DNA from: a virus
DNA: 30,861 nucleotides
Virus record (IMG/VR): IMGVR_UViG_3300048597_000148
Span: 1-30,861 of that record
Reading direction: 5' to 3' (one strand)
Part shown: piece by piece, positions 1,920-30,171 of the stretch
How positions within the stretch are numbered: the stretch's first letter is position 1
How the letters are laid out: every line of letters begins with the position of its first letter
Program-made: the position numbers and the translations under genes
Notes under the pieces: model-generated
Databases searched by the model: none
Told to the model about the DNA's origin: nothing
Seen by the model: the letters and a program-made list of their open reading frames with translations, nothing else

Positions 1920-2155
1920 TGCCGCGCCTCCATCGCCCGCCCGCCACACGGTCAATAGCGCAGGACGCGCCGCTGCTGGTCGCGCCTGAGCTGGCCGAAC
2001 TCGCGCGGCTCGCCGGGGAGCGGGACCAGCTGATCGCCCGCATCCGCAGGCTGGCTCCGAACGCGCATCGCCGCGTCATCCTCGAGGACAGGCTGCAGGG
2101 CGTCGTCGCGAAGATCCTGCGCATCGAGATCGCGATCTTTGGGGGGCGCTCGTGA
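1919..2155 (+). CDS. Small helical phage protein
   Basis: A 78-residue protein whose ATG overlaps the preceding stop (TGATG). After a basic, proline-containing start it forms one long helical stretch (residues about 22-72) rich in L, R, A and E with a heptad-like pattern, consistent with a short coiled-coil dimer. Its end overlaps the GTG start of the Mor-type activator, so the two are translationally coupled. No family recognised. Confidence 0.6.
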   Translation: MPRLHRPPATRSIAQDAPLLVAPELAELARLAGERDQLIARIRRLAPNAHRRVILEDRLQGVVAKILRIEIAIFGGRS

Positions 2156-2613
2156 GTGCGCCCCATTTCCTGCATGGCGTAGTGGTCGGGGTCGACGACA
2201 TCGTCGACAGCCTCGCCGGCATCGCGGAGCAGATGGGCGTCGAGACGGCCCTGCGCTTCGCAGCGCAGTTCGGCGGCACGCGCCTTTACGTGCCGTCGAC
2301 ATGGCGCAGCGAGTTGCCGCTCAATCTGCTCGGCGAGGAGGCCGCCCGCGAGTTGAGCCGCATGTTTGGGCCCGAGACCATCGACGTGCCGAAATGCCCG
2401 TGGCGCGCAGAGGCTGTGGCGAGGATTGCTGCCGAGATGCGGCGCGCGGGGTTGACCGTCAACGAGATCGCGCTCGCCCTCGACCTTTCCTGGCGCACCA
2501 TCAACAAGGCGCTCAGCGGCCGCCCGCTCTTGACGCGGGGGCGCTCGCGGCGCTTGGATGAGCGGCAGATCGACATGGATGACTGGCTCGCGCGCCCTCC
2601 GGCGGCCGAGTGA
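2152..2613 (+). CDS. Mor/C-type transcription activator
   Basis: A 153-residue protein starting at GTG 2152 in a GTGA overlap with the previous stop. The N-terminal half (about residues 12-70) is the helical dimerisation part expected in the Mor family, including the DIVDSLAGIAEQMG segment and a strand pair (GTRLYVPS). A helix-turn-helix lies at about residues 98-122 (GLTVNEIALALDLSWRTINK), followed by a basic arm. In Mu, Mor activates the middle promoter and the related C protein activates the late promoters; only one such gene is seen here, directly before the lysis and head genes, so it may do the job of C. Family placement rests on the fold pattern and gene position. Confidence 0.78.
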   Translation: MSAPHFLHGVVVGVDDIVDSLAGIAEQMGVETALRFAAQFGGTRLYVPSTWRSELPLNLLGEEAARELSRMFGPETIDVPKCPWRAEAVARIAAEMRRAGLTVNEIALALDLSWRTINKALSGRPLLTRGRSRRLDERQIDMDDWLARPPAAE

Positions 2614-2701: not shown

Positions 2702-3277
2702 ATGACGCCCATTCCCCAGCGCTTCGCCCACCTCAAGCCTGCGCCCAAGCCCGCATGGATGATGAAAGCCCTGGATGAGCTGGGGCAGCGCGAGGTTGCG
2801 GGCGCGGCGTCCAACCCGCGCATCATCCAGTATCGAAAAATGGGCAAGACCCCGCTCGGCGGCGACGATGGCAAGGTGCCGTGGTGCGCAATTTTCACGA
2901 ACGCGATGCTGGAGACGGTGGGCGTGTCGGGCTCCGGCTCGGCGATGGCCCGCTCCTATGTGTCGAGCAAGGAGTTCCGCCGCCTTGATCGGCCGATGCT
3001 GGGCTGCGTCGCGGTCAAGAGTTCCAATCGCGGCCCGGCCTCCGGCCATGTCGGCTTCTATGTCGGCGAGGATGGGCTGTTCATCTATCTCGTCGGCGGC
3101 AACCAGAATGACGAGGTCAACATCTCGCCATTCCGGAAGAAGGAATTCGTCGGGTTCTACTGGCCCAGGGGCCAGCCTGAGCCGGTCGCGCCGTGGAATG
3201 GGCCCTACCGCCTTCCGCGCCCCTCGCTGCCGCATGAGAAGCGCGCCGCCGCGCCCCCGCCGACCCGGGAGGCCTGA
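2702..3277 (+). CDS. Endolysin-type peptidase (TIGR02594 / CHAP-like)
   Basis: A 191-residue protein; ATG 2702 follows GGAGACGGCC. It has the landmarks of the TIGR02594 NlpC/P60-like family: E-G-x-x-E-like start region, NPRIIQY, the cysteine in VPWCAIFTN, the histidine in ASGHVGFY and the polar GGNQND, giving a Cys-His catalytic pair. Such enzymes cleave peptide bonds in peptidoglycan. There is no signal peptide, so release would depend on the holin encoded just downstream. The C-terminal 30 residues are proline-rich and probably disordered. An 88-bp gap with no clear promoter separates it from the activator gene. Confidence 0.82.
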   Translation: MTPIPQRFAHLKPAPKPAWMMKALDELGQREVAGAASNPRIIQYRKMGKTPLGGDDGKVPWCAIFTNAMLETVGVSGSGSAMARSYVSSKEFRRLDRPMLGCVAVKSSNRGPASGHVGFYVGEDGLFIYLVGGNQNDEVNISPFRKKEFVGFYWPRGQPEPVAPWNGPYRLPRPSLPHEKRAAAPPPTREA

Positions 3278-3279
3278 GA

Positions 3280-3519
3280 ATGCACAAAGGGCTTCCTGTC
3301 GCAGGCTACACCGACCAGACCGCCGACAAGGTCGATCTGGTCAACGGCCACAAGCGCATTGAAGAGAATGTCCTTCGGATGATGGACGCCTATCGCGAGG
3401 ATGCGTCAATCGATCAGCGTTGGCTGGCGATCGCCCGGACGCAAATAGAGCAAGGCTTCATGGCGCTCAACCGGGCCATCTTCCGGCCGCAGCGGGTCAC
3501 GCTCCCGGAGGACGCATGA
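3280..3519 (+). CDS. acb2: Acb2/Tad1-family anti-CBASS protein (predicted cyclic nucleotide sponge)
   Basis: A 79-residue helical protein; ATG 3280 follows GGGAGG. It opens with PVAGYTDQT, continues with a helix carrying VNGHKRIEE and ends with DQRWLAIARTQIEQGFMALN, the signature hairpin of the Acb2/Tad1 family. Members bind and sequester the cyclic oligonucleotide signals of CBASS (and, for Tad1, Thoeris) defence. From memory, Tyr11 and Lys26 of the Pseudomonas phage protein contact the cyclic dinucleotide; here Tyr10 and Lys25 stand in the matching places. The gene sits between endolysin and holin and overlaps the holin start (ATGA), so it would be expressed with the lysis genes. The family call is from pattern recognition; ligand choice is unknown. 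Confidence 0.78.
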   Translation: MHKGLPVAGYTDQTADKVDLVNGHKRIEENVLRMMDAYREDASIDQRWLAIARTQIEQGFMALNRAIFRPQRVTLPEDA

Positions 3520-3797
3520 GCGCTGCGCCGTTGCCGCCCAAGCCGTCGCGCGCCTTTTCCAAGGGCTGGACGACCGCCAATCTCCTGGCCTGCTGGGCCG
3601 CGCTCGGCGCGGCCATGTGGCTGGGGCGCGACATGGCGGCCATCGTCGTTCCGATCATGGCGACACTGATCGCCGCGCTGCTCGGCGTCTACCAGACCAT
3701 CGGCCATTTCGATCTGCGCGCGCTCTCGCAACTGGCGGGCCGTCCGGCCCAGCCGGAGCGCCGGGCGCGACGTCCGCCCGACGGAGGCGCAGGATGA
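3516..3797 (+). CDS. Holin-like small membrane protein
   Basis: A 93-residue protein with ATG 3516 overlapping the previous stop. Two hydrophobic segments are visible, about residues 21-36 (LLACWAALGAAMWLG) and 42-60 (AAIVVPIMATLIAALLGVY), separated by a short charged turn. The C-terminal 25 residues are strongly basic and proline-rich. Two membrane passes, a charged tail and a position between endolysin and spanins fit a holin that permeabilises the inner membrane. Its last bases overlap the Rz start. No specific holin family is assigned. Confidence 0.7.
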   Translation: MSAAPLPPKPSRAFSKGWTTANLLACWAALGAAMWLGRDMAAIVVPIMATLIAALLGVYQTIGHFDLRALSQLAGRPAQPERRARRPPDGGAG

Positions 3798-4180
3798 TCG
3801 GCTTGCTCGCCGCCCGGCTGGGATTGGACCTTGGTAAAATCTCTGGCCGGGCGATTATACTGATCGCCCTCGTTTGTATCACTGGAATCGCGTTTTGGCG
3901 CGGCGTCGCCCGCATCGAAACGATGGTCGACACCGCCCGCATCGAGGCGCGCGCCGAACGCGACGCCCATTGGCGGGGCGAGATCGCGCGCTCGACGGCC
4001 GAGGCCGAAGTTGAGCGCGCACGCCTGGCGATCAACGCGGCGGCGGCTGACATGGCCGCGCGCGGCGAGATCGAGCGTCTGACAGGGCAAATCACCGATC
4101 TGGAGAAGAGCAATGCCTCGCTTCCTGGCGCTGGCGCTTGCGGCATTGACCGTGAGCGCGTGCGCCTCCTCGCCCGCTGA
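3794..4180 (+). CDS. Rz: Rz-like inner-membrane spanin
   Basis: A 128-residue protein; ATG 3794 overlaps the holin stop. A single N-terminal membrane segment (about residues 19-37, AIILIALVCITGIAFW) is followed by a long charged coiled coil from about residue 42 to 110, rich in A, E and R. This is the plan of an i-spanin: anchored in the inner membrane with a periplasmic helical domain that meets the outer-membrane partner. The 3' end overlaps the lipoprotein gene at 4113 in another frame, the classic Rz/Rz1 arrangement. Recognition is by architecture, since spanins diverge quickly. Confidence 0.78.
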   Translation: MIGLLAARLGLDLGKISGRAIILIALVCITGIAFWRGVARIETMVDTARIEARAERDAHWRGEIARSTAEAEVERARLAINAAAADMAARGEIERLTGQITDLEKSNASLPGAGACGIDRERVRLLAR

Positions 4181-4373
4181 TCCCGTGCTGGTCACGCGGC
4201 TGGCCAAGCCGACGCTGCCCGCGTCGGCGCTGACGCCCTGTTCATCTCCCGTTCCGCTGCCGGACCGCAGTCTGACGGCGGGGGAGACCGTCAAATTCTG
4301 GGGGCGTGACCGCGCCGCCCTGCGCATCTGCGAAGCCCGGCGTGCGGCTGCGGTGCGAAGCCTGGAGAACTGA
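4113..4373 (+). CDS. Rz1: Rz1-like outer-membrane spanin lipoprotein
   Basis: An 86-residue protein whose first 68 bases overlap the Rz gene in a different frame. The signal peptide ends in the lipobox LTVSAC, giving lipidation at Cys17 after signal peptidase II cleavage. The mature part has several prolines and two further cysteines, and ends in a short helical stretch. Together with the upstream i-spanin it should bridge the periplasm and fuse the membranes in the last step of lysis. ATG 4113 follows GGAGAAGAGCA inside the Rz coding sequence. Confidence 0.8.
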   Translation: MPRFLALALAALTVSACASSPADPVLVTRLAKPTLPASALTPCSSPVPLPDRSLTAGETVKFWGRDRAALRICEARRAAAVRSLEN

Positions 4374-4374
4374 G

Positions 4375-4899
4375 ATGCGCTTTCTCGTCCTGATTTTACT
4401 GACGCTCTGGCCAATCGCCGCCGACGCTGCCAAGGCGCGGTGGCCTGGCCCGTTCCCGGTCGAATTGCTGGCGGTGCGCGACGGCGACACTGTCGATGTG
4501 CGCTTCCGCGATGGGCCCTGCGGGCGCGCTCCCTGCCCCGGACAGGAGACGCTGGTGCGCGTGCTCGGGATCGACGCGCCGGAATCGCATCGCTGCGGGA
4601 CGAGCCGCATCGGCCAGCGCTCCTCGGGCGGCCAGAGCTGCGCCTCCTGCGACGAGGAGTGGCGGCTGGGCAAACAAGCCGCGACCGAGCTTGACGACTT
4701 CACGCGCGGGCGGGCGGCGAGGGTCGGGCAGATCAGGCCGGATAAATACGCGGGCCGCGTGCTTGGCGAGCTCGAGGTCTTCGCCGATGGCGGCTGGCGC
4801 TCGGCGGCAGAGCACATGAAGCTGAAGGGGCTGGCCGTCGCCTATGACGGCCGCCGCAAGACAAAGCCGTGGTGCGGGAAAAAGAGGGCCAGCCGATGA
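4375..4899 (+). CDS. Exported thermonuclease-family (SNase-like) protein
   Basis: A 174-residue protein starting one base after the Rz1 stop. Residues 1-19 form a signal peptide (hydrophobic run, AADA cleavage region). The staphylococcal-nuclease fold follows: DGDTV at 36-40 (calcium-binding Asp), VRVLGIDAPE with Arg62 and Glu70, and AGRVLGEL with Arg128, which match the catalytic Arg-Glu-Arg set. The final PWCG is common in phage and plasmid members. Six cysteines in the mature protein fit a disulfide-bonded periplasmic enzyme. It probably degrades DNA or RNA outside the cytoplasm, perhaps thinning host nucleic acid during lysis. Its stop overlaps the next start. Confidence 0.85.
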   Translation: MRFLVLILLTLWPIAADAAKARWPGPFPVELLAVRDGDTVDVRFRDGPCGRAPCPGQETLVRVLGIDAPESHRCGTSRIGQRSSGGQSCASCDEEWRLGKQAATELDDFTRGRAARVGQIRPDKYAGRVLGELEVFADGGWRSAAEHMKLKGLAVAYDGRRKTKPWCGKKRASR

Positions 4900-5135
4900 G
4901 CGACGCGCGTGAGATCGCCGACATCAGGGAGCGCCTCGCCCGCATCGAGACGCGCCAGGAGGTTCATGGGGAGGAGATCAAGAAAGGGTTCGATGCGCTC
5001 GGGTCGCGCTTCGACGGGCTGGATGACCGCATGCGCAATGTCGAGGTCAAGTCCGGCGTCTACGGCACCGTCGCCGGCGGCGTGATCTCGGTCGGGATTG
5101 CCTATCTCTCCGCCAAGTTGAAGAGCGGCGCGTGA
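4896..5135 (+). CDS. Coiled-coil protein with C-terminal membrane segment (XhlA-like plan)
   Basis: A 79-residue protein, ATG 4896 overlapping the thermonuclease stop. Residues 1-50 are a charged coiled coil (IRERLARIETRQEVHGEEIK and on), and residues about 54-72 form one hydrophobic helix (VYGTVAGGVISVGIAYL). This is the plan of XhlA/haemolysin-like and similar small phage membrane proteins next to lysis genes. It may be a second holin component or antiholin, or an unrelated membrane protein. It closes the lysis block. Confidence 0.65.
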   Translation: MSDAREIADIRERLARIETRQEVHGEEIKKGFDALGSRFDGLDDRMRNVEVKSGVYGTVAGGVISVGIAYLSAKLKSGA

Positions 5136-5141
5136 TCGCGC

Positions 5142-5642
5142 ATGGCCCATGACGAGCAGACGAGGCGCACCGCGCGCCAGCGATATGTGCATGAGCGGCA
5201 AGCGCTGCCGGTGATCGCGCTCGGGTTGGGTGTGCCGGAGCGCACGCTGCGCCGCTGGAAAGCCGAGGCTGTCGAAAAGGGCGACAACTGGGATGCGGCG
5301 CGGGCATCATCCACCATCGCCGGCGAGGGCCTCGAGAGCGTCGTAACCGCCGTGGTGCATGATTATGTCGCCCTGCATCAATCGGCGATCGAGGATCTGA
5401 AATCGGCCGAGGGTGTCTCGCCGTTCGAGAAGGCCAAGATCCTCGCGAGCCTCGCGGATTCATTCAACAAGACGGTCAACTCGGCGGGGCGGCTCTCGCC
5501 GAAAATCAGCGAGCTCGGCGTCGCGATGGATGTGCTGCGCCGCCTCGCCGAATTCGTCAGCCGCCACCATCCTGACGCCGCGCCCGCGCTGCTCGAGGTG
5601 CTGGAGCCGTTCGGCGAGCAGCTCGGCGAGGTGTATGGATGA
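5142..5642 (+). CDS. DUF1804 protein, terminase small subunit-like
   Basis: A 166-residue protein six bases after the previous stop. The N-terminal 45 residues hold a helix-turn-helix (ALPVIALGLGVPERTLRRWK) followed by the GDNWDAARAS turn typical of DUF1804 proteins. The middle and C-terminal parts are helical (EKAKILASLADSFNKTVNSA; LEVLEPFGEQLGE). In Mu-like phages this family occupies the position just upstream of the large terminase and is taken to be the DNA-recognising small subunit. The stop overlaps the terminase start by ATGA. Confidence 0.85.
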   Translation: MAHDEQTRRTARQRYVHERQALPVIALGLGVPERTLRRWKAEAVEKGDNWDAARASSTIAGEGLESVVTAVVHDYVALHQSAIEDLKSAEGVSPFEKAKILASLADSFNKTVNSAGRLSPKISELGVAMDVLRRLAEFVSRHHPDAAPALLEVLEPFGEQLGEVYG

Positions 5643-7294
5643 CCGACCTCAAAGGCCGCAAACTCAGCCCCAAGGCGTTCAAGGACAGCATGGACCAGCT
5701 GCGCGCCTCGATGCGCGCGGCGATCGACGCAAATGTCGACGGCTTCCCCATCGACGAGGCACTGCGTCAGACGCGGCGCAAGACCGTGCTGGCTCCTGAC
5801 GGTTTCCGGTTTTTCTGCGAGACCTATTTCCCCCATTACCTCACCGAGGCTCCGAGCCGGCTGCATCTCCACCTGTTCGAGGATCTGCCGCAGATGCTCC
5901 TCAGCGAGGCTGCGGCAGGGCGCAAGGGGCACCGCCGGCTGAAGATCGCGCCGCGCGGTTCGGCCAAATCGACCATCGCCACGCAGTTGTTCACGCTGTG
6001 GTGCGCGCTGCGCGGCCTCAAGCGCTTCATCATCATCGCCATGGACACCTATGAGCAGGCGGCGCTCATGGTCGAAGCGATCAAGGTGGAGATCGAGAGC
6101 AATCCGCGCCTCGCCTATGACTATCCCGAGTTCACCGGCGCGGGCCGCCGTTGGCGCGAGGGCGAGGTCGTGACGCGCAACCGCGTGATGATGCTGGGCG
6201 CCGGCGCGCGCCAGGCGCTGCGCGGCAAGCGGCATGGGCCGCACCGCCCCGATCTCGTCATCCTCGACGACATCGAGAACGACGTGAACGTCGAAAGCCC
6301 CGCCTATCGCAACAAACTGCAGGGCTGGGTCGAAAAGGCCGTCGCGAAGCTGGGCGCCGCGGATGGCTCGCTCGACATAGTCATGCTCGGCACCGTGCTG
6401 CATTACGATTCGGTTCTGGTGCGGATGTCGCGACAGCCCGGCTGGGAGGCGCGGCACTTCAAGGCGGTGGAGAGTTTCCCCGACCGCATGGATCTCTGGG
6501 ACCGCTGGCAGGAAGTCCTGCTCAACATCGGCGAGGATGACGCCCACGCCTTCTATCTCGCCAACCGCACGGAGATGGACCGGGGCGCGGTGGTCAACTG
6601 GCCACAGGTCGAGACGCTCTATGCGCTGATGGTCGAGCGCGCATCATCCGAAACGGCCTTCATGTCGGAGAAGCAGGGCGAGCCGATCTCCGAGGAAAGT
6701 CCTTTCCGCGCCATCCAGTTCTGGGTGATGAAACAGACGCGCTGGATATTCTTCGGCGCGGTGGACCCCTCTCTGGGAAAGCACGGCGCGAACCGCGACC
6801 CGTCCGCCATCCTGGTCGGCGGGCTGGATCCGGAGACCGGCGTGCTCGATGTGGTCGAGGCGTCGATCGCGCGGCGGCTGCCCGATGTCATCATCTCCGA
6901 CGTGATCGCCATGGCGAAGCGCTGGCAACCGGCGCTCTGGTTTGTCGAGGCGGTGCAGTTCCAGGAGTTCCTGCGCACCGAGATCATGAAGGAGGCGGTG
7001 CGCCAGGAGGTGGCCCTGCCTGCGCTTCCAGTGCTGCCTATCGCCGACAAAAGCCTGCGCATCCAGAGGCTGCAGCCGCCGATGCTCGCCGGTCTCATTC
7101 GCCTGCACCCGTCGCAGACAGCCCTTTTGGAGCAGCTCAGGCAATGGCCCTCGGGCGCTCATGATGACGGGCCGGATTGCCTCGAGATGCTGTGGTCGGG
7201 CGCGGTGACACGCGGCGGGGCGATGGGCGGGGCCGGCGCCGCCATCAGGATGGCCGGGCGCAGCGGCGGAGCAACCGATGGCTGGAGGATGTGA
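5639..7294 (+). CDS. Terminase large subunit (Mu gp28-like)
   Basis: A 551-residue packaging motor. Walker A lies at about residues 104-112 (APRGSAKST), Walker B at about 205-210 (LVILDD, followed by IEND), and the RNase H-like nuclease begins near residue 374 with AVDPSLGK, giving the first catalytic Asp at about 376; ALWFVEAVQFQ is the following nuclease strand. The length fits Mu-type large terminases, which cut headfuls from integrated copies. The end overlaps the portal gene start (TGATG). Confidence 0.93.
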   Translation: MTDLKGRKLSPKAFKDSMDQLRASMRAAIDANVDGFPIDEALRQTRRKTVLAPDGFRFFCETYFPHYLTEAPSRLHLHLFEDLPQMLLSEAAAGRKGHRRLKIAPRGSAKSTIATQLFTLWCALRGLKRFIIIAMDTYEQAALMVEAIKVEIESNPRLAYDYPEFTGAGRRWREGEVVTRNRVMMLGAGARQALRGKRHGPHRPDLVILDDIENDVNVESPAYRNKLQGWVEKAVAKLGAADGSLDIVMLGTVLHYDSVLVRMSRQPGWEARHFKAVESFPDRMDLWDRWQEVLLNIGEDDAHAFYLANRTEMDRGAVVNWPQVETLYALMVERASSETAFMSEKQGEPISEESPFRAIQFWVMKQTRWIFFGAVDPSLGKHGANRDPSAILVGGLDPETGVLDVVEASIARRLPDVIISDVIAMAKRWQPALWFVEAVQFQEFLRTEIMKEAVRQEVALPALPVLPIADKSLRIQRLQPPMLAGLIRLHPSQTALLEQLRQWPSGAHDDGPDCLEMLWSGAVTRGGAMGGAGAAIRMAGRSGGATDGWRM

Positions 7295-29364: not shown

Positions 29365-30171
29365 GTGGAGAACATTGACCTTATCGCGACGCGCCCCATC
29401 CCGACCATCGCCGGCTATGTCGGTGGCAAGCGCGTGTTGGCCAAACATGTCACGCCGATGATCGAGGCCGTGCCGCACGCTCTTTATTGCGAGCCGTTTC
29501 TCGGCATGGGAGGCATCTTCTTCCGGCGTCAGAACCGGCCCGCCGTCGAGGCGGTCAATGATAGATCCAAGGACGTCGCGACGTTCTTCCGCGTGGTGCA
29601 GCGCCACCACCAGGCGCTGCTCGACATGCTGCGGTTCCAGATCGCCAGCCGCGCCGACTACGAGCGGCTCCTGAAGGTCGATCCCGACACGCTCACCGAT
29701 CTGGAGCGCAGCGCGCGGTTCCTCTTCCTCCAAAAGATGAGCTTCGGCGGAAAGGTGGACGGGCGCGTGTTCGGCATCTCGACGACAAGCCCGGCCAAGT
29801 TTCATCTCGGCAAACTCTTGCCGCTGATCGAAGCCGCGCATGAGCGGCTGTCCGGCGTCTATATCGATTGCCTGCGCTGGCAGGACTTCATGCTGCGCTG
29901 GGATCGACCGCACACTCTCTTTTTCCTCGACCCGCCCTATTGGGGCGTCGAGGACTACTATGGCAAGGACCAGTTCGGGCGAGAGGAGTTCGAGGAGCTT
30001 TCGGAGCGTCTGCGCAACCTCAAGGGGCGCTTCATTCTGACGCTCAACGACGTGCCGGAAGTGCGCCGCATCTTCGGCTGGGCTGGCATCGAGGCAGTGC
30101 GGCTCAACTACAGCACGTCTGGCCGGCCGACCGAAGGCCGGGAGGTCATCATCACGGGAGGTGGCGGGTGA
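29365..30171 (+). CDS. DNA adenine methylase (D12 class)
   Basis: A 268-residue protein starting at GTG 29365, the only start codon upstream of the essential N-terminal motif; its ribosome site is poor. Motif I is TIAGYVGGKRVLAKHV with YCEPFLGMGG soon after, and motif IV is LFFLDPPYWG (DPPY) at about residue 191. The rest, LKGRFILTLNDVPEVRRIFG, fits the D12 (Dam-like) family that puts a methyl group on adenine N6. No restriction partner is next to it, so it probably protects phage DNA or alters host expression; in Mu the right end carries the mom DNA modification gene. Confidence 0.92.
   Translation: MENIDLIATRPIPTIAGYVGGKRVLAKHVTPMIEAVPHALYCEPFLGMGGIFFRRQNRPAVEAVNDRSKDVATFFRVVQRHHQALLDMLRFQIASRADYERLLKVDPDTLTDLERSARFLFLQKMSFGGKVDGRVFGISTTSPAKFHLGKLLPLIEAAHERLSGVYIDCLRWQDFMLRWDRPHTLFFLDPPYWGVEDYYGKDQFGREEFEELSERLRNLKGRFILTLNDVPEVRRIFGWAGIEAVRLNYSTSGRPTEGREVIITGGGG

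Follow-up and report, generated by a model that had tools for sequence, protein, structure and literature searches.

A short Acb2-type sponge gene as probable late-operon cargo in a Mu-like phage

A 79-residue protein encoded at the junction of the endolysin and holin-like genes of a Mu-like phage is very probably a short cyclic-oligonucleotide sponge of the Acb2 type, which is carried as cargo of the late operon and would keep CBASS effectors untriggered while virions are being made. The window, as the whole analysed stretch of DNA (30,861 nucleotides) is called below, is the stand-alone IMG/VR record IMGVR_UViG_3300048597_000148, whose nearest relatives point to an alphaproteobacterial host. 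Assignment of this phage to the Mu-like group, put forward in the original prediction, is supported by its predicted gene content, that is DUF1804, a Mor/C-like activator, MuF and gp36 homologues.

Results and Discussion

Organization of the lysis region

Upon re-reading of the record the position of the gene, the 79-residue length of its product, the DQRWLAIARTQIEQGFMALN block and residues Tyr10 and Lys25 all proved to be correct as predicted. The gene lies among the following features:

2152–2613, plus strand: Mor/C-like late transcriptional activator, located just before the lysis cassette (Pfam Mor 1.1e-4; phrog_836 8.7e-21)
2702–3277, plus strand: CHAP-like putative endolysin of 191 aa, no membrane segment (CHAP 2.6e-4; PHROG matches)
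3280–3519, plus strand: acb2-like sponge gene, 79 aa, predicted two-helix hairpin with pocket residues Tyr10, Lys25 and Thr54
3516–3797, plus strand: holin-like membrane protein of 93 aa, named by position and hydrophobic stretches
3794–4180, plus strand: Rz-like inner-membrane spanin (phrog_10152 6e-23)
4113–4373, plus strand: Rz1-like outer-membrane lipoprotein spanin, overlapping the Rz gene in another frame (LysC Rz1-like 7e-6; phrog_456 4e-7)
5142–5642, plus strand: DUF1804 small terminase-like gene after the lysis region (1.1e-56)
5639–7294, plus strand: large terminase, used as a query for finding relatives with and without the sponge

The sponge gene starts 2 bp past the endolysin stop (3277), while its own stop shares 4 bp (ATGA, 3516–3519) with the ATG of the holin-like gene, and GGAGG-type Shine-Dalgarno sequences are found near both the sponge start and the holin-like start. 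This layout is consistent with translational coupling of the sponge and the holin-like protein. In the comparison with the nearest relative, L012, the sponge showed 71% amino acid identity and a pN/pS of 0.30 (0.24–0.45 for the neighbouring genes), which indicates purifying selection, and the gene can therefore be considered as real and used.

The predicted location between endolysin and holin was confirmed with respect to the position itself and to the upstream gene, the product of which resembles the tail lysozyme (3.7e-29) and endolysin (1.4e-4) families of PHROG, its Pfam CHAP match being weak and below the cut-off. The downstream “holin”, however, gave no family match in the Pfam/PHROG comparison, and its function is suggested by position and hydrophobicity: two hydrophobic stretches are read from the sequence and one alone passes the hydropathy cut. 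A homology search with this protein alone returned only the contig of L012.

Two further predicted genes follow the spanins. An SNase-like nuclease with a signal-like N-terminus (4375–4899), located between the spanin and terminase genes, is also present in L012 and L027. The small protein encoded at 4896–5135, which has a C-terminal hydrophobic stretch and a weak match to the holin family phrog_689, may possibly be a second holin or an XhlA-like lysis protein.

Relationship to Acb2 and Tad1

The original prediction placed the protein in the Acb2/Tad1 family, and this was borne out by Pfam. Sequence profile, fold and conservation of pocket residues all lead to the Acb2 branch. The protein matches the Pfam domain PF24729 (Acb2_Tad1_hairpin) with 62.1 bits and E 5.8e-17 (cut-off 27), as do 39 of 39 aligned sponge relatives. 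Compared with PDB by phmmer it finds Acb2 chains at E 2.7e-5, while the profile of 39 members matches Acb2 structures 8h2j (3e-10) and 8ixz (3.6e-10) as well as Vs.4 of T4 (2.8e-6), with no Tad1 among its PDB matches. The AlphaFold (AF2) model (pLDDT 87) is composed of a short N-terminal segment and helices 15–40 and 46–68, with no further domain and no strands of three or more residues. When this model was compared with PDB by Foldseek, all nine top matches were chains of Acb2 or Vs.4 (probability 1.00, TM 0.63–0.71) and the next match had a probability of 0.41. Thus, of the two structures named in the original prediction the model matched Acb2/Vs.4 and not Tad1. Foldseek E-values of the Acb2/Vs.4 matches are modest (0.007–0.017) because the fold is a simple and small helical hairpin, and it is therefore the sequence profile that carries the Acb2 assignment. 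Tad1 has the hairpin Pfam domain in common with the sponge, but its N-terminal beta-sheet domain is missing here, and since neither profile nor fold gave a match, membership in Tad1 was rejected.

Tyr10, Lys25 and Thr54 are invariant in 39/39 sponge relatives. The first two had been proposed as counterparts of Tyr11 and Lys26 of Pseudomonas Acb2, and exactly this correspondence was given by the profile alignment (Lys26 being that of the PaMx/PaP2 proteins), in which Tyr10 is also equivalent to Tyr8, and Thr54 to Thr68, of the T4 protein (Vs.4, 7uq2). Lys26 of Pseudomonas Acb2, the equivalent of Lys25, is presumably a ligand-site residue. For the two residues shared with T4 Acb2 mutational data are available: Y8A is reported as binding-deficient and T68M as lowering binding (PMC12657230).

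The best PDB match by both profile and fold are Pseudomonas Acb2 proteins (PaMx33, PaMx41 and PaP2 p26; 8h2j, 8h2x, 8ixz), which share with the sponge a hairpin of two helices, GY towards the N-terminus, a Lys of helix 1 and, in helix 2, the block RWLAI(G/A)(K/R)T, although the sponge is only about 25% identical to known Acb2. The hairpin is shorter than in solved Acb2, since 22 residues separate the pocket regions (Lys25–Arg47) versus 41 in 8h2j (Lys26 to Arg67), a difference of about 19 residues. Vs.4 of T4 also differs from the window sponge in having a longer hairpin and in belonging to a virulent phage. Short hairpins are, however, not unusual in the Acb2 family, because the Acb2 of pphageBV72, which begins with the typical MDNQH, has 76 aa and the PDB entry 9ptq is a 76-residue “Acb2 homolog 43”. 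The reduced length, as well as the location of many relatives in blocks of head genes, might suggest a decayed or non-binding hairpin that is kept for some other reason, for instance as a small virion or assembly accessory. The existence of short family members, purifying selection (pN/pS 0.30) and the invariance of Tyr, Lys and Thr in all 39 relatives make such a possibility very slight. Sequence comparison and the structural model thus support the assignment of the predicted 79-residue protein as a short member of the Acb2 branch.

Late slots occupied by sponge genes

Location inside a lysis cassette, which was also part of the original prediction, holds true for the window phage and for L012, where the order endolysin–sponge–holin is the same, but it is no general trait of the family, for which at least three late slots and empty junctions in close relatives were registered. 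The 49 relatives, distinct by sponge sequence, are distributed between the lysis (about 6), TerS–TerL (13) and capsid–gp36 (20) slots and other places (10), though several of them came from searches seeded with window genes and these counts are not unbiased frequencies. Endolysins of L050 and L051 are 68–71% and their holins 48–59% identical to those of the window, with nothing between the two genes, and in L049 an unrelated 59-aa membrane protein occupies the endolysin–holin junction. In L131, the large terminase of which is 72% identical to that of the window, the same slot holds a different hairpin protein of 85 aa (5939–6193, plus strand; PF24729, 69 bits). It represents a subfamily with its own invariant Tyr22, Lys37 and Thr70, whose profile and model likewise match Acb2/Vs.4 and which elsewhere occupies the capsid–gp36 slot of L251 and, in Sinorhizobium phage Aussie, a place in the head-tail block. 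A window-type copy is located in the capsid–gp36 slot of L129 (terminase 71%). Near relatives with the slots covered (L012, L129 and L131) therefore have a hairpin gene in three cases of three, represented by two subfamilies in two slots. The tree of these short proteins is poorly resolved, but even so the lysis position must have arisen in it at least twice.

Since the position is mobile, a lysis role as a property of the whole family was rejected. One might nevertheless assume that the protein is a lysis regulator of the antiholin or releasin-like kind, which times the action of holin or endolysin and resembles Acb2 in structure alone. Its gene does sit at the endolysin–holin junction and overlaps the holin-like gene, and in Mu itself an unusual lysis regulator, gp25, is encoded after the endolysin (PMC9239132). 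However, gp25 belongs to a different, membrane-anchored DUF2730 family, while the hydropathy scan detected no hydrophobic stretch or membrane segment in the 79-residue protein, and its ligand-pocket residues are invariant. Most sponge relatives, moreover, lie far from lysis genes, and L050 and L051 possess matching endolysin and holin but no sponge, which leaves a regulator of lysis as a highly improbable explanation. Comparison with PHROG gave a match solely to an unnamed family and to no lysis family. Because the gene uses three late slots, is absent from some junctions and is replaced by another hairpin protein in a near relative, we consider the sponge as cargo, that is probably a swappable counter-defence gene and not a part of the lysis machinery.

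Some other arrangements were observed in the same set of genomes. A third hairpin type (MTDPFRTQYRQLNADEAHAIARIKALA...) is encoded at about 1501–1686 of the minus strand in the capsid–gp36 slot of another Mu-like phage (L231, record G428), and in L141 (16529–16755) a sponge homologue from this slot is split over two frames, being either a decayed copy or a sequencing error. In Rhizobium phage RHph_X2_26 (L003) the sponge gene (5992–6240) directly follows the gene 5435–5974 annotated as TIR-domain; the label looks doubtful, since Pfam gives DUF1937/DUF4406 for this product.

Proposed function and timing of expression

The oligomer, the ligand, late timing and protection, each of which we infer, may be envisaged as follows. 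By homology, the two-helix hairpin would form a homo-oligomer (hexamer in Acb2) and would bind cyclic di- and/or trinucleotides, and effectors of CBASS, possibly together with other cyclic-oligonucleotide effectors, would then not be triggered during virion production. For the gene one would expect transcription out of the C-dependent lysis promoter region and translation alongside the lysis genes, and the pulse of sponge would coincide with capsid and other late products.

In Mu the C protein is required for the late promoters lys, I and P (PMC4461284). Since the sponge gene is located between the gene of the C-like activator and the head genes, within the lysis block, late transcription can naturally be expected, and late expression of the sponge appears to be a sound assumption. 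The other two main slots, TerS–TerL and capsid–gp36, likewise belong to late blocks of Mu-like phages. A sigma-70 scan upstream of the cassette revealed no promoter on the plus strand. A late sponge would be reasonable if it is late products to which CBASS responds; according to a review, phages with deleted acb2 escape CBASS via a capsid mutation (PMC10419184).

CBASS in host genomes

SMODS cyclase was found in two of six sequenced genomes carrying a sponge relative. Paracoccus sanguinis has an operon of cyclase, Cap2-like E1–E2, Cap3-like JAB and SAVED endonuclease, and in Oceaniglobus trochenteri a CapV-like patatin phospholipase is encoded near the cyclase. The class-wide rate of SMODS is 15–18 per 385 genomes, and the excess in carriers (2/6 versus about 18/385) corresponds to p ~0.03, which becomes p ~0.07 (2/9) if three further carriers without SMODS are included. 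Thus, the co-occurrence of sponge and CBASS is weak, and a strong one was not established by these values.

The lack of SMODS cyclase in most carriers tested would be in line with a sponge whose main target is not the CBASS signal but gcADPR of Thoeris, as for Tad1, cA3 of type III CRISPR-Cas or another cyclic nucleotide. Pfam lumps the hairpins of Acb2 and Tad1 together, and Acb2 reportedly has a high affinity for cyclic trinucleotides and may influence type III CRISPR (PMC12043709). On the other hand, neither the profile nor the fold led to Tad1, the N-terminal beta domain is missing, and both carriers with CBASS genes possess them together with CapV phospholipase or SAVED nuclease. A main target other than the CBASS signal is therefore rather unlikely, and counteraction to CBASS is retained as the preferred function of the sponge.

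Relation to known phages

A Mu-like phage with acb2 in its late operon has been described before, namely JBD67, a temperate Pseudomonas phage, where gp38 (Acb2) occupies the slot between capsid and PF07030 (gp36) genes in which many relatives of the window sponge are also located. A counter-defence gene in such an operon is therefore not new, and what stands of the “notable context” suggested by the original prediction is the lysis-cassette slot. The product of JBD67 gene 38 is longer (108 aa), is encoded outside the lysis cassette and falls, in the tree, into the gammaproteobacterial branch, unlike the window sponge; JBD67 with deleted acb2 is a published test phage for counter-defence (PMC13083879). 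In PaMx35 acb2 lies at the end of a block of replication genes, whereas the window sponge is associated with lysis genes. Two proteins of Rhodobacter Mu-like phages, RcapMu gp44 and RcWaterboi gp42, belong to the window subfamily (52–53% identity), but their genes are in the capsid–gp36 slot. For the former, the depositors had noted a similarity to a cyclic-nucleotide binding domain, while the shorter alphaproteobacterial subfamily as a whole is largely annotated as “hypothetical protein” in phage records.

Acb2 is a known family of sponges, which in other phages take up the cyclic-nucleotide signals of bacterial immunity, and one preprint describes it as rather rare and confined to particular groups of phages (PMC11722364). 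Compared with the literature searched, the endolysin–holin slot, its alternate occupation by two hairpin subfamilies and the extent of the shorter-hairpin alphaproteobacterial subfamily seem to be new. Our data extend Acb2 to a broad alphaproteobacterial subfamily, the gene of which is found repeatedly at particular late sites of Mu-like phages. One may speculate, with chances slightly below even, that transposable phages have a few fixed late slots (endolysin–holin, TerS–TerL and capsid–gp36), which are loaded with interchangeable cyclic-nucleotide sponges of different subfamilies, that synthesis of the sponge is timed with the late products triggering CBASS, and that the endolysin–holin slot is a previously undescribed place for counter-defence genes. 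If these slots are real, candidates for counter-defence could be picked by position alone, and a sponge that is expressed late could be used to find out when during infection CBASS signalling arises.

Relatives of the sponge (40–49% identity) were also found on large plasmids of Agrobacterium, Pararhizobium and Sinorhizobium (NZ_CP056050.1, NZ_CP119570.1, NZ_KM659098.1 and others). At the right end of the window record (29365–30171) a D12-class adenine DNA methyltransferase is encoded, which perhaps serves anti-restriction.
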